A stretch of 39,368 nt of DNA, taken from positions 1 through 39,368 of the forward strand of contig NZ_SMLW01000659.1 of assembly GCF_009711405.1 (NCBI RefSeq). Direction: 5' to 3'. The first letter of the stretch is position 1. The number at the start of each line of letters is the position of its first letter. Both the position numbers and the translations under genes were made by a program. Origin of the DNA: Fulvivirga kasyanovii (GTDB lineage: Bacteria; Bacteroidota; Bacteroidia; Cytophagales; Cyclobacteriaceae). The notes beneath the pieces were generated by a model. That model searched no databases, was not told the DNA's origin, and worked only from the letters and a program-made list of their open reading frames with translations. Below, piece after piece: positions 28,985-33,066 of the stretch.

Positions 28985-30160
28985 TTATTTCAAAAATTCA
29001 TAAATACCGGCTACGCCTTGTCCACCACCGACACATGCCGTTACCATACCATACTTGCTTCCATTTCTTCTGCGCATTTCGTTAAGCAGGGTGATAGAAA
29101 GTCTTGCTCCGGTGCTTCCAAGCGGGTGGCCCAGTGCGATAGCTCCTCCGTTAACATTGATTTTGGACATGTCCAGGTCAAGGTCACGGATAACTGAAAG
29201 TGATTGGGCCGCAAAAGCTTCGTTCAGTTCTATCAGATCGATATCGTTGATCTTCAACCCGGCTCTGTCGAGGGCTTTTGGAATAGCATAAGTTGGCCCT
29301 ACACCCATAATACGCGGCTCTACACCTGCTGCGGCATAGCTTACCAGTCTTGCTACAGGCTCCAGACCCAGCTCTTTCACTTTTCTCTCCGACATTACCA
29401 CCACAAAGGCTGCTCCGTCGTTGGTAGGTGAAGAGTTACCGGCTGTTACTGATCCTCCGGCGGCGAATACAGGCTTAAGCTTACCCAATACCTCTTTAGA
29501 GGTTTCCGGCCTCGGCCCTTCATCAGTGTCTACAGTAAATTCGCGGGTTTTCTTTTTGTTGTCTTCAACATAAGTTTCCTTCACAGTGATCGGCAGGATC
29601 TCATCTTTGAATTTACCCGCTTTTTGTGCCTCCACTGCTTTCATATGCGAATTGTAGGCAAATTCATCCTGATCGTCACGTGAGATTTTCCACTCCTGGG
29701 CTATTTGCTCAGCAGTAAGTCCCATGCTGGTGTAGTAGTCAGGGTGCTCTGAAGTGATGTTGTAATTCAGCGCGGTTTTATATCCCATAACCGGCACCAT
29801 GGACATGGATTCGGTACCTCCGGCTATCACCACATCGGCCATGCCTGCATTGATCTTTGCTGAAGCCAAATGAATAGCTTCAAGCCCTGAGCCACAGTAT
29901 CTGTTTATTACCATACCCGGAGTGTCGATACCCAGGGCCATCAGGGAGATCATTCTTCCCATTTGCATCCCCTGCTCCGCTTCCTGCACGGCATTCCCTA
30001 CGATCACATCATCAACCATATTGTTTTCCAATCCGTCGATCGATGACATGAGGTGCTTAATAATATCCACAGCCAGATCATCAGGTCGAGTAAAGCGGAA
30101 ACCGCCTTTCTTAGCTCGTCCTACGGCTGTTCTAAATCCTTTTACTATATATGCGTCCAT
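28985..30160 (-). CDS. fadA: Acetyl-CoA C-acyltransferase (beta-ketothiolase)
   Basis: A 391-residue thiolase for the last step of beta-oxidation, cleaving 3-ketoacyl-CoA with CoA. The nucleophile is Cys89 in NRYCGSGLEAIHLAS, the His is in GGAIALGHPLGSTGAR and the second Cys is in VTACVGGGQGVAG. NEAFAAQ is also present. Length and motifs are typical of degradative thiolases. It is separated from the upstream FadN-like gene by 503 bp that hold the four-helix-bundle gene and its repeats, and it is followed after 79 bp by the acyl-CoA dehydrogenase gene. The gene symbol is by function, and paralogous thiolases may exist elsewhere. Confidence 0.93.
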   Translation of the reverse strand: MDAYIVKGFRTAVGRAKKGGFRFTRPDDLAVDIIKHLMSSIDGLENNMVDDVIVGNAVQEAEQGMQMGRMISLMALGIDTPGMVINRYCGSGLEAIHLASAKINAGMADVVIAGGTESMSMVPVMGYKTALNYNITSEHPDYYTSMGLTAEQIAQEWKISRDDQDEFAYNSHMKAVEAQKAGKFKDEILPITVKETYVEDNKKKTREFTVDTDEGPRPETSKEVLGKLKPVFAAGGSVTAGNSSPTNDGAAFVVVMSERKVKELGLEPVARLVSYAAAGVEPRIMGVGPTYAIPKALDRAGLKINDIDLIELNEAFAAQSLSVIRDLDLDMSKINVNGGAIALGHPLGSTGARLSITLLNEMRRRNGSKYGMVTACVGGGQGVAGIYEFLK

Positions 30161-30212
30161 TGTAGTATTTTAATTATTTTGTACGTCTATTTCGTTTTGT
30201 TTCCTTTTGCTT

Positions 30213-30246
30213 TTGTTAATCAGCAATCGGCAAAGGCAGTTGGCAA
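30213..30246 (-). repeat. 34-bp repeat, left flank of the four-helix-bundle gene
   Basis: Its reverse complement reads TTGCCAACTGC, C, TTTGCCGATTGC, TGATTAACAA and matches 26925-26958 at 32 of 34 bases. Its inner 24 bp (30223-30246) also match 30637-30660 at 20 of 24 positions in inverted orientation. It ends 2 bp before the stop codon of the four-helix gene. Confidence 0.85.
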
Positions 30247-30248
30247 CC

Positions 30249-30623
30249 TTAGCCACTCGTATACTTTTCAGGATAATTGATCATATGATTTAAAAGTCGT
30301 CCGATTTCTGCGGCCTCCTTATCAAGATTATCTTTTATCTCCGCTGTTATGTAATTGCACTCTTTCGCAAAATCCAACCATACCTGGGTTTCGCTGTTTT
30401 CCATATCTGCGTCTGAAGTTTTACTAATAAAGTGAGCCGGATAAATCCTTTTCCGGTATGCTTCAGCTATCGAAGTGGATACCGATCTTGAAGATCTCCT
30501 GATTTGATCAGTTAGAGAATAAGTTTCTTCCTTTGGAAATGACTTTGATACTTCAAAAATTTTCATTGCCAGTTCAAAGGATTTTTTGTAAACCGTAAGC
30601 TCTTTAAAACCAAAATTCTTCAT
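30249..30623 (-). CDS. Four-helix-bundle protein (23S rRNA intervening-sequence/S23 family)
   Basis: A 124-residue all-helical protein of the family found in 23S rRNA intervening sequences and, in distant form, as diversity-generating-retroelement Avd proteins. Diagnostic segments are FKELTVYKKSFELAMKIFEV at the start, LTDQIRRSSRSVSTSIAEAY in helix 2 and ENSETQVWLDFAKECNYI in helix 3. No catalytic site is expected. Members form basic-surfaced pentamers and may bind nucleic acid, but their role is unsettled. It sits in the fad operon, same strand, bracketed by imperfect inverted repeats, which suggests insertion as a small element rather than a part of beta-oxidation. Confidence 0.88.
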   Translation of the reverse strand: MKNFGFKELTVYKKSFELAMKIFEVSKSFPKEETYSLTDQIRRSSRSVSTSIAEAYRKRIYPAHFISKTSDADMENSETQVWLDFAKECNYITAEIKDNLDKEAAEIGRLLNHMINYPEKYTSG

Positions 30624-30636
30624 TCATTTAACAATT

Positions 30637-30660
30637 TTGCCGACTGCATCTGCCTATTGC
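30637..30660 (+). repeat. 24-bp inverted repeat, right flank of the four-helix-bundle gene
   Basis: TTGCCGACTGC, ATC, TGCCTATTGC agrees with the reverse complement of 30223-30246 at 20 of 24 positions. It lies 13 bp upstream of the four-helix ATG and 3 bp from the stop codon of the FadN-like gene. The two repeats enclose 30247-30636, almost exactly the gene. Confidence 0.8.
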
Positions 30661-30663
30661 CTA

Positions 30664-33066
30664 CTAGTTTCTAAGCGGTTTCCCCGTGGTCAATATCGAC
30701 TGTATTCTTTCCAGGGTTTTCTTCTCTCCGGTCAGGGACAGGAAGGCTTCTCTTTCGAGGTCGAGCAGGTATTGCTCTGAAACTTCCTGTGGATATGACA
30801 GGTCTCCGCCGCTCATTACGTAAGCAATTTTGTTGGCAATCTTCACATCATGGTCTGAGATGTAGTTACCCATTCTCATACCATTCACTCCGGCCATAAA
30901 CAAAGCCATACCGGTTTTACCCTGTACTTTGATGTTGGTAGCCTGGATCGGTTGTGTATATCCTGCATTGGCCAGCTCCAGCACTGTGGCTTTGGCGTCT
31001 GCTATTTGTCTGTCTTTGTTGATCGTGATCTTATCTTTCGGACGGATGATGTTCATGCCCATAGCCTCATGTGCCGAGGTGGCAACTTTGGCCGTAGCAA
31101 TATTCATAAATGCATTTTGCAAAGCATTTAACTCCACATCACCTTCTTCTATGGCATCAGATACGCGCTTGGTCAGCTCCTTCGTTCCGCCACCACCGGG
31201 TATAAGACCAACACCAACCTCTACAAGACCGATATAGGTTTCGGCTGCTGCCTGTACCACATCGGCGTGCATGGTCATCTCACAACCTCCACCAAGGGTA
31301 AGGCCATGTGGTGCCACTACTACGGGAACAGATGAGTAGCGTACTCTCATCATGGTATTCTGGAAATGACGGATCATGAAATCTACTTCATCAAACTCCT
31401 GCTCTATGGCATACATAAATACCATTCCCAGGTTGGCTCCGGCAGAGAACTGCGATCCCTGGTTACCGATCACCAATCCGCGGTAATCTTTTTCGGCCAT
31501 ATCTATGGCGCGGTTGATCCCTTCTACGACTTCTCCACCAAGGGTGTTCATTTTGCTGTGGAACTCGACATTCAATACGCCATCTCCAAGATCAAAGATG
31601 GTGGCTCCGGCATTGCTCCAAAGCACTTTGTTTTCGCGGATGTTGTCGAGAATGATATATTCGTCAGCTCCGGGAACGGGCTTGTACGATTTGGATTCTA
31701 TGTCGTAATAGTTTCTGACACCGTCTTTTGCCGTGTAGAAGGATTCGATGCCTGAATCCAGCATGTCATAAACCCACTGGTTAGGTTTATAACCCATCTC
31801 TTCCATTTTCTCAACAGCCTTCTTCACGCCAACGGCATCCCATGTTTCAAACGGACCTACTTCCCAGCCAAAGCCTGCGCAAATGGCGTCATCAATTTTA
31901 TAAAGTTCGTCAGCTATTTCAGGGATTCTGTTGGAAACATATTTAAACAAAGCATAGAATGAGTCTCTGTAGAATTCTCCCGCTTTGTCTTTTCCTGAGA
32001 ATAAAGGCTTAAACCTTTCTTTAAGGTTTTCGATAGGCTTGGTAGCTTCAAGTGTGCCAAACTTAACCTTTTGCTGAGGCTTATATTCTAAAGTTTTAAG
32101 GTCGAGGGTAAGGATTTGAGTTTTGCCTTTTTCATCTTTGGTTTTCTTATAAAAACCCTGGCCGGTTTTATCTCCCAACCACTTGTTCTCTTCAAGCTTC
32201 GCTACTACTTCCGGTAATTTGAAAGTTTCACGTCCTTCGTCGTTAGGCAGTCCCTGGTAAAGGCCATTGGCCACTTTGATAAGGGTATCCAGGCCTACAA
32301 CATCCGAAGTCCTGAATGTGGCTGACTTGGGCCTTCCGATTACCGGGCCTGTGAGTTTATCCACTTCGTCAACATTCAGGTCGAGCTTCTGCATAGAGTC
32401 GATCACCTTAAGAATGGCATAAATACCAACTCGGTTGGCGATGAATGCAGGTGTGTCTTTACAAAGTACCGTTGTTTTACCCAGGTAAAGATCGCCGTAG
32501 TGCATCAGGAAATCTGTTATCTCAGGGTCTGTTTTCGGTGTAGGGATGATCTCGAGTAATTTCAGGTATCTCGGAGGGTTGAAGAAGTGCGTTCCACAGA
32601 AGTTCTTTTGGAAATCTTCACTTCTGCCATCCAGCATCAGGTGAATCGGAATACCTGAGGTGTTGGATGTGATAAGGGTACCTGGTTTGCGGTGTTTTTC
32701 TACCTGATCAAATACTTTCTTTTTGATGTCAAGATTTTCCACAACTACCTCAATAGTCCAGTCGCAATCTTTGATACCGGCCATATCATCGTCGAAGTTA
32801 CCTAACGTAATTCGACTGGCAAAGGCCTTGTCGTACAAGGGAGCCGGCTTCGATTTTATTGCAGACTCAAACGCCTGGTTAACAATTCGGTTCCTGACCG
32901 CTTTGTTTTCCAACGTAAGCCCTTTCTTCTTTTCATCCTCCGTTAGTTCACGGGGCACGATATCTAACAACAGCACTTTTACTCCAATGTTCGCGAAGTG
33001 ACATGCGATCCGGGAACCCATGATCCCCGAACCCAACACTGCTACTTTGTTAATTCTTCTGGTCAT
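30664..33066 (-). CDS. fadN: FadN-like 3-hydroxyacyl-CoA dehydrogenase / enoyl-CoA hydratase
   Basis: An 800-residue bifunctional beta-oxidation enzyme. The NAD-binding domain comes first (VAVLGSGIMGSRIACHFA, residues 1-195, with NTSGIP and THFFNPP), then two 3-hydroxyacyl-CoA dehydrogenase C-terminal domains (about 200-480). The crotonase domain lies at the C-terminal end (about 500-720), with SQFSAGANLG and HGLTLGGGCEM forming the oxyanion hole and VGVGLIPGGGGTKEL in the active site. This order is that of Bacillus FadN and the reverse of E. coli FadB. It hydrates enoyl-CoA and oxidises the product to 3-ketoacyl-CoA for the thiolase. Its start overlaps the MarR stop (ATGA). Confidence 0.93.
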   Translation of the reverse strand: MTRRINKVAVLGSGIMGSRIACHFANIGVKVLLLDIVPRELTEDEKKKGLTLENKAVRNRIVNQAFESAIKSKPAPLYDKAFASRITLGNFDDDMAGIKDCDWTIEVVVENLDIKKKVFDQVEKHRKPGTLITSNTSGIPIHLMLDGRSEDFQKNFCGTHFFNPPRYLKLLEIIPTPKTDPEITDFLMHYGDLYLGKTTVLCKDTPAFIANRVGIYAILKVIDSMQKLDLNVDEVDKLTGPVIGRPKSATFRTSDVVGLDTLIKVANGLYQGLPNDEGRETFKLPEVVAKLEENKWLGDKTGQGFYKKTKDEKGKTQILTLDLKTLEYKPQQKVKFGTLEATKPIENLKERFKPLFSGKDKAGEFYRDSFYALFKYVSNRIPEIADELYKIDDAICAGFGWEVGPFETWDAVGVKKAVEKMEEMGYKPNQWVYDMLDSGIESFYTAKDGVRNYYDIESKSYKPVPGADEYIILDNIRENKVLWSNAGATIFDLGDGVLNVEFHSKMNTLGGEVVEGINRAIDMAEKDYRGLVIGNQGSQFSAGANLGMVFMYAIEQEFDEVDFMIRHFQNTMMRVRYSSVPVVVAPHGLTLGGGCEMTMHADVVQAAAETYIGLVEVGVGLIPGGGGTKELTKRVSDAIEEGDVELNALQNAFMNIATAKVATSAHEAMGMNIIRPKDKITINKDRQIADAKATVLELANAGYTQPIQATNIKVQGKTGMALFMAGVNGMRMGNYISDHDVKIANKIAYVMSGGDLSYPQEVSEQYLLDLEREAFLSLTGEKKTLERIQSILTTGKPLRN

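Follow-up and report, generated by a model that had tools for sequence, protein, structure and literature searches.

The window analysed here, a 39,368-nucleotide stretch of DNA from Fulvivirga kasyanovii (contig NZ_SMLW01000659.1), carries between a fadN-like and a fadA-like gene a small gene of the S23/IVP family, which is enclosed by two inverted arrays of short tandem units, referred to below as arms. The features of this locus, with genes assigned from the open reading frame (ORF) list and family profiles and, for the S23/IVP gene, also from the predicted fold, are as follows.

28985..30160, minus strand: FadA-like acetyl-CoA acyltransferase (thiolase), the downstream neighbour in gene direction
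30218..30246, plus strand: downstream arm (B type), inverted; units AATCAGC AATCGGC AAAGGC AGTTGGC, then AAC, read on the plus strand
30249..30623, minus strand: S23/23S-rRNA-IVP four-helix-bundle gene, 124 aa
30636..30666, minus strand: upstream arm (A type); units AGTAGGC AATAGGC AGATGC AGTCGGC, then AAAA, read on the minus strand
30664..33066, minus strand: FadN-like 3-hydroxyacyl-CoA dehydrogenase/enoyl-CoA hydratase, the upstream neighbour in gene direction

The 124-aa protein exceeded the curated cut-offs of both profiles of the S23/23S_rRNA_IVP family, PF05635 (E 4.9e-32, 110.7 bits against a cut-off of 33.8) and TIGR02436 (E 2.7e-30, 104.8 bits against 24). An AlphaFold2 (AF2) model of the protein (pLDDT 95.2) contained four helices and had the fold of 2gsc and 2rld, homologues with five chains each (2rld being the structure of BT_0352), superposing on 2gsc_B with a template modelling (TM) score of 0.86 and on 2rld_B with a score of 0.78. 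The Xanthomonas homologue is a toroidal homopentamer according to PMC4990558, where the function of the family is stated as not known. Residues Q39, R45, E53, and E74 were invariant. The model was also similar to Avd, a protein of diversity-generating retroelements (DGR; 4dwl_D, TM 0.79, E 0.0076); the bAvd-like profile PF22296 was barely passed (41.4 bits, cut-off 40) and the score with the DGR Avd profile NF033474 was far under its cut-off (31.2 against 80 bits). Members of the S23/IVP family were present in 142 of 198 genomes sampled from the phylum of the window (match E 1e-15 or better), and one scan of viral contigs returned no relative. The four-helix gene was the sole listed ORF between the two arms, and no recognised transposase was encoded there, the only listed gene being a PF05635 gene and not a Y1 RAYT (REP-associated tyrosine transposase; REP, repetitive extragenic palindrome). 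No reverse transcriptase was found among the three nearest neighbours scanned (FadN-like, FadA-like, and MarR).

Each arm of the window element consisted of four tandem units of 7, 7, 6, and 7 nt. The first bases of the upstream arm form the TAG stop codon of the fadN-like gene, and the downstream arm lies 2 bp behind the four-helix gene. With G000 denoting the window's own genome, the same upstream-arm layout was seen in genomes G014, G012, and G009, and arms of the downstream type (AATCAGC...GGCAAC) were also observed at places in G000 which lack the gene. The initial annotation had described a pair of imperfect 24-bp inverted repeats around the gene, and this description was confirmed: positions 30223-30246 (GCAATCGGCAAAGGCAGTTGGCAA) and the reverse complement of 30637-30660 (GCAATAGGCAGATGCAGTCGGCAA) agree in 20 of 24 positions, and gaps of 2 and 13 bp between repeats and gene are correct, given the ORF at 30249-30623 on the minus strand. 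The 11-nt unit TTGCCNAYTGC proposed for these repeats was dropped, as the true unit measures about 7 nt and 11 nt correspond to one and a half heptamers. A profile built from 12 arm sequences, the two arms of the window among them, matched the window at 30218-30246 on the plus strand and at 30636-30666 on the minus strand. A repeat search with 9-nt seeds over 29800-31000 reported no inverted pair, since the match is interrupted.

Inverted arms were scored without reference to any particular word: the 250 bp preceding a gene were locally aligned with the reverse-complemented 250 bp that follow it, and a threshold of 15 was applied. The window gene scored 16. The first set comprised the PF05635 genes from 38 genomes, G000 included; 113 places were analysed and 107 of them had at least 150 bp on both sides, the remainder being mostly fragments or weak matches. 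Scores of at least 15 were obtained for 76 of these 107 genes and at one of 189 mock positions in the same loci. Together with the 16 of 214 neighbouring ORFs which attained this score, the mock positions provide the chance estimate for the window locus; as a single locus it would be weak evidence, and the significance comes from recurrence in relatives. Direct repeats scored at this level in only 13 of the 107 genes (1/189 mock positions). With respect to periodicity, a lag-7 autocorrelation of at least 0.65 was measured for 33% of genes versus 3.7% of mock positions in the first set, with a smaller excess at lag 8 (9% versus 2%) and little or none at lags 4-6 and 9-12.

As with the first set, the clade set showed inverted arms at most genes. 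The best 80 of 310 relatives of the window protein gave 79 loci, 78 after one loss through a short flank, and 61 of the 78 reached the threshold compared with 3 of 148 mock positions. Two of these loci (L242, L243) appear to be the G009 and G012 loci of the first set and two more (L263, L275) are near-duplicates; with all four removed, 57 of 74 still scored at least 15. In a phylum-wide sample 18 of 30 genes did so (mock, 0/53); no excess was found there at period 7 (7% versus 6%), and period 8 was enriched instead (13% versus 0). Among the loci of this sample, L323, L329, L343, and L350 seemingly represent four-helix clades with an 8-nt period (TTCTAAGA-like) instead of a 7-nt one. Plasmid genes, 18 in all from 18 hand-picked records out of 32 (17 cyanobacterial, one Azospirillum), reached the threshold in 15 of 18 cases (mock, 0/24). 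No inverted arrays were detected at DGR Avd genes, of which 13 of 16 matches, those with usable flanks, were measured (0/7 above the Avd cut-off, 0/13 with weaker matches included). Thus the two-armed design is widespread among S23/IVP genes. By eye, the array words varied from gene to gene (GACARTA, GTTTCYA, GAAGYTG, CTGGTTN, TAATTGA, and others). When only the window's own word was scanned for, 6 of 92 loci had inverted arrays and one more had an array on a single side; such a scan would have missed the general pattern, which emerged from the word-free comparison of flanks.

To relate array words to proteins, arms were compared between 77 loci (score at least 14, no stop), leaving out 59 pairs with homologous outer flanks. 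The share of pairs with an arm score of at least 14 rose with protein identity, from 1-3% under 45% identity to 5% at 45-50% (88 pairs), 9% at 50-60% (74 pairs), and 34% at 60-70% (29 pairs); the pairs share genes, so these counts are not independent. When one arm was reversed to the wrong strand, 0% of pairs at 50-70% protein identity were alike. Within the clade set, whose loci by their record labels (mostly of metagenome assemblies) span Bacteroidota, Ignavibacteria, Chlorobi, Calditrichota, Marinimicrobia, Cloacimonadota, Scalindua, and Nitrotoga, chains of at least three CART cores on the expected strand were present in either arm of 54 of 78 loci and in both arms of 31, versus 7 of 78 for wrong-strand chains in either arm. 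A strict count found at least three cores in 85 of 156 arms (wrong strand, 9/156). Cores were spaced by 7 nt in 296 instances, 6 nt in 79, and 8 nt in 7 (wrong strand: 39, 1, and 3). In the first set, CART chains occurred at 3 of 9 genes with at least 50% identity, none of 14 at 35-50%, and 3 of 84 under 35%; in the phylum sample they occurred at 2 of 30. At the level of sequence comparison, array word and protein clade are linked, a result which supports the earlier suggestion that the repeats are putative sites bound by the protein.

Arms were also dispersed at places without the gene. Genome-wide counts with the arm profile (E 0.1, about 150 candidates scored per genome) include gene arms and are, where high, lower bounds: 146 matches in G000, two of which are the gene's own arms, 150 in G012, and 157 in G025, followed by 72 in G001, 37 each in G013 and G014, 18 in G009, 16 in G021, and 1-5 in seven further genomes. 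Zero matches were obtained in 23 of the 38 genomes. A gene of at least 50% identity was present in eight genomes, in one case with a stop codon; 6 of these 8 contained at least 10 arms, compared with 2 of the 30 genomes lacking such a gene (Fisher p 2.5e-4, with genomes grouped after the counts had been seen). A second array type behaved similarly. The second S23 gene of G000, on contig C663, has CTGGTTN arms, and G000 also contains scattered CTGGTTN arrays (45 matches, including 9 at the C663 gene). Where a gene of this type was present, with types assigned by eye, 5 of 7 genomes had at least five matches away from it, versus 1 of 31 genomes without the gene (p 2.4e-4, 38 genomes).

The fine structure of the dispersed arms, inspected at 20 loci of G012, 25 loci of G000, and a few others, matched that of the resident gene's arms. 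The two arms of the gene have a third unit of 6 nt in G000 and in G014, and of 7 nt in G012 and in G009. The arms examined from the same genomes had the corresponding length: 30 of 31 G000 arms and all 3 G014 arms had 6 nt, and 30 of 31 G012 arms and both G009 arms had 7 nt. By eye the examined arms fell into two types, one ending in GGCAAAA like the gene's upstream arm and one ending in GGCAAC like the downstream arm. In G012 the two types stood head to head at 7 of 20 loci, 39-42 nt from start to start. Some G012 arms sit within longer dispersed repeats, so not all copies are independent; at L203-L221 of G012, L138 of G009, and L141 of G013, several arm pairs were enclosed by a longer dispersed repeat whose outer sequence is conserved (around GAGGTATTG...GGGATTGG). 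Arms lay inside open frames of at least 100 codons in 1 of 31 cases in G012 (random expectation 41%) and in 8 of 32 in G000 (63%).

Gene-deleted copies of a whole element were found in G025. This genome holds an intact element of the same clade on contig C59 (word RTAGACA), and at five other places the C59 element was present with its gene reduced to its two ends, each copy consisting of the left array, the first few codons, approximately the last 35-40 codons, and the right array. Four of the deleted copies were identical over the 178 nt between the arrays and the fifth was 87% identical. The parent was 100% identical on both sides of the deletion, and the four identical copies shared the same internal deletion. 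The five places differed in their neighbours, which were SecY and ribosomal protein L15; RbfA and an ORF that matched no Pfam family; SBF-family and saccharopine-dehydrogenase-like genes; UDP-glucose-dehydrogenase-like and epimerase genes; and, on one side, a methyltransferase. L170 appeared to hold a similar derivative of a second G025 element. As four identical deleted copies occupy four sites, gene and arms must have moved as a unit, and past movement is shown in this one genome. The initial annotation had proposed that gene and repeats form a small mobile unit, and both these two-armed copies at different G025 sites and the gene-less arms dispersed mostly in genomes with a related gene support the proposal.

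Around the G025 copies no clear direct target duplication was seen; by eye the flanks were more inverted-like than direct-like, with array ends blurring the boundary. At some places the host sequence outside the arms was an inverted repeat (AGCGCATGGC, GTAATTCAATGG). Inverted scores of the host flanks were 12, 7, 13, 10, and 10 for own pairs versus a median of 5 and a maximum of 15 for mismatched pairs, which is suggestive only, as if the element had entered a hairpin. The rRNA intervening sequences (IVS) which carry genes of this family are located at helix tips (PMC4990558).

The element at the fadN-fadA junction is common to four species (G000, G014, G012, G009). The dN/dS of its four-helix gene was 0.040 for G000-G014 and 0.052 for G012-G009, with dS saturated in the other pairs. 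This copy is thus old, vertically inherited, and under purifying selection on the protein. At the same junction G002, G007, G010, and G013 contained an intact four-helix gene of another family, with 25-37% identity to the window's group. Inspection by eye indicated array-like remnants without a gene in G003, G004, and G001, a degraded element of another family in G005 and G006, and short fadN-fadA gaps in G011 (29 nt) and G008 (84 nt). Comparison of this junction among close strains for an empty site had been proposed; the gene was indeed missing there in some relatives, but no clean one-step empty site was found, because the junction holds another four-helix family in four species and, by eye, array-like remnants in five. 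Of the two outcomes which had been named as refuting a mobile unit or bound sites, neither occurred: the repeat was found near other such genes, and relatives do not all carry the gene at this place. In 15 genomes of the same genus (L185-L199), the fadN-fadA gap appeared as an intergenic hotspot, with two four-helix families intact in eight and, by eye, array-like remnants in five.

Taken together we consider it probable that the gene and its two inverted heptamer arrays represent a family of minimal mobile elements, whose sole gene encodes an S23/IVP protein recognising its own arrays. One unit would comprise the S23/IVP four-helix gene and both arrays. By analogy with the Xanthomonas homologue the protein may form a homopentameric ring in which each subunit would take one short core (CART in the window clade), the following 2-4 nt serving as a flexible spacer, so that some four or five tandem units would make up one putative binding site on a single strand. 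A constant core, an elastic spacer, and a handful of units together suggest one unit per ring subunit. By binding both arms, the protein would pair the two ends of an element copy that is single-stranded and folded into a hairpin. The paired copy would be directed, via an activity of the protein itself or of the host, to new sites, which would mostly be extragenic and might resemble hairpins. Derivatives lacking the gene could be mobilised in trans. At fadN-fadA the element is now an old, vertically inherited copy that selection on the protein has retained. A ring protein of unrelated fold, TRAP (trp RNA-binding attenuation protein), binds one short core per subunit with flexible spacers between cores; it offers an analogy only with the proposed scheme of ring, core, and spacer, in which the window protein would bind its arrays.

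Several observations weigh against this interpretation. Clear inverted arms were missing from 31 of the 107 genes of the first set, and with the harder control of neighbouring ORFs (16/214, 27/193, 3/43, and 3/32 at a score of at least 15) the same inverted score was attained by 7-14% of ORFs. The overall Mantel correlation between arms and proteins was weak (r 0.10, a value attained in 5 of 999 permutations), and it is the closer pairs that carry the signal. The arms of the window, G014, G009, and G012 themselves failed the test for three-core CART chains because their third unit deviates, and the median of four clean cores per arm, instead of five, is a loose fit to a pentamer. Spacers agreed at 0.52 within a locus versus 0.41 between loci, an excess which pairing or gene conversion would equally produce. 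Both G013 (37 arms) and G021 (16 arms) are without a gene of 50% identity and may have lost it. A third word, GAAGTCN, corresponded poorly with genes: its arrays were most abundant in G001 (62 matches), with no gene of the GAAGTCN type recognised there; this may reflect a lost or missed gene, or may be a counterexample. At G001:C111:3186-3936, several GAAGTCN arrays lie at intervals of approximately 150-280 bp as an array-bearing tandem repeat. Head-to-head pairs above threshold were found at none of 22 G000 loci, where pairs were direct, and 8 of 32 G000 arms lay within open frames. No recent full-length copies were seen, the top protein identity between unrelated sites being 69% (77 loci), and we know of no catalytic motif in the S23/IVP family.

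The movement of the elements could instead be due to an unrelated enzyme acting in trans, either a reverse transcriptase or a transposase of the RAYT/IS200 kind, with the four-helix gene as a passenger or Avd-like helper. The homology of the family to Avd, the helper of DGR reverse transcriptases (PF22296, 4dwl), points in this direction, as does the belief that REPINs (REP doublets forming hairpins) spread with RAYTs (PMC3116915), but the word varies with the four-helix protein's clade, this gene is the sole listed ORF between the arms, and the arms are by eye not single palindromes as REPs are. We regard this explanation as rather unlikely. It is less likely that the arrays are features of RNA, such that a transcript stem around the ORF, as in the 23S rRNA IVS, would be cut by RNase III, the protein would regulate its own mRNA, and the dispersed arrays would be leftovers. 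The Coxiella IVS does combine 2-3 tandem heptamers (GACAGAT) before its S23p ORF with a 28-bp terminal stem cut by RNase III (PMC4990558), and the preponderance of inverted over direct arrays (76 and 13 of 107 genes) and the somewhat better agreement of spacers within than between loci also favour a stem. In contrast, the variable base of paired units matched in only 2 of 9 cases in window-type elements, spacers at clade loci agreed at only 0.52, the stem would be reduced to short helices between loops, and both arms fit the consensus rather than one another. This reading was set below that of a mobile element because the variable bases of paired units mostly mismatch.

A regulator which moves nothing, with arms as autoregulatory sites and dispersed arrays as its regulon, seems about as improbable, if not slightly more so. 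The arms do lie near start and stop codons, dispersed arms are under-represented in open frames in both G012 and G000, and purifying selection acts on the gene. Against a regulator speak the identical copies with a deleted gene, which occupy four different sites. Finally, slippage-prone tandem repeats might simply pile up in the intergenic DNA where small isolated genes lie. The scores attained by neighbouring ORFs would fit such an artefact, as would the clustering by eye of several array types in the same gaps. DGR Avd genes are equally small and had none of seven above threshold, however, and neither inverted orientation, clade-specific words, and the strand rule nor the third-unit length common to gene arms and examined dispersed arms would be expected, so we consider an artefact very improbable.

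Compared with known systems, the minimal mobile element we favour is nearest to REPIN-RAYT by its working and to the rRNA IVS by its protein. The 23S rRNA IVS of Leptospira and Coxiella with an S23p ORF belong to the same protein family and have a single ORF enclosed by terminal inverted repeats some 28 nt long, and the window element likewise encloses an S23p ORF between terminal inverted repeats. Unlike them it lies outside rRNA, between fadN-like and fadA-like genes, has a clade-specific heptamer code, and is accompanied by dispersed gene-less arms in the same genome. As in REPIN-RAYT systems, where the repeat type follows the gene (PMC3116915), a resident gene is flanked by a repeat type which is dispersed in the genome, mainly extragenic, and in G012 partly arranged as inverted doublets; in contrast the gene encodes a four-helix protein instead of a Y1 (HUH) transposase, the arm consists of tandem units and is no palindrome, and no inverted doublets were seen in G000. 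The element was filed under neither, since it lacks what defines each, a Y1 transposase in the one case and a location within rRNA in the other. Miniature inverted-repeat transposable elements (MITEs) and insertion sequences have a parallel in the internally deleted, non-autonomous copies keeping both inverted ends of the full copy, which were found in G025 and not at the window site, but here the parent element has no recognised transposase and no clear direct target duplication was seen. DGR Avd has a homologous fold, but differs by the low NF033474 score, the lack of a reverse transcriptase among the scanned neighbours, and Avd genes without inverted arrays.

Dispersed, largely intergenic 7-nt arrays have been reported before: TAACTGA arrays in Beggiatoaceae, cyanobacteria, and Bacteroidetes (PMC4679880), 186 GGGAATC-type arrays in Xanthomonas campestris, the organism of XCC0516, and GGGGA(C/T)T arrays in Nostoc (both PMC4692102). 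The accounts of arrays in these two papers tie no four-helix gene to them. An exact TAACTGA triple was present in 18 of 395 genomes of the phylum; at the first locus in each, a four-helix gene adjoined in the expected orientation in 2 of 18, and none lay within 1.5 kb in 16 of 18. In the open-access literature, with subscription papers outside the scope, no paper was found which links four-helix genes outside rRNA with heptamer arrays. The element class is probably new, with the rRNA IVS among its probable members. A broader proposal, which we put forward tentatively and hold to be possible rather than probable, is that S23/IVP proteins are self-specifying end-recognition proteins, perhaps recombinases, of a large unrecognised class of hairpin-inserting elements, each clade having its own word of 6-8 nt, and that the rRNA IVS and the dispersed arrays of cyanobacteria, Xanthomonas, and Beggiatoaceae are its products. 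The clade-specific array code, gene-less arms, and moved deleted copies would give the S23/IVP family a function, and the scattered heptamer repeats of several phyla could gain a source. From each protein the word that it would bind can be predicted, and from each orphan array the clade of a protein that is either present or lost. A small protein and a short array that address themselves in this way could become a tool to place or tag DNA or RNA.

Two further observations concern the places in which arrays and four-helix genes were encountered. At L139 and L153 of G001 and at L150 of G000, arrays of two or three words adjoined in one gap, as if elements may prefer sites already bearing arrays. 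Among the plasmid loci, one four-helix gene beside cas1-cas2 (L131) had no inverted arrays (score 9), and three others (L120, L123, L130) were located inside CRISPR-Cas loci with inverted arrays of their own (scores 39, 29, and 17), in contexts of type I-D between cas6 and cas4 and of type III-B between cas10 and a cmr3-like gene. The reported link between S23/IVP and cas genes may thus reflect insertion instead of a cas function.
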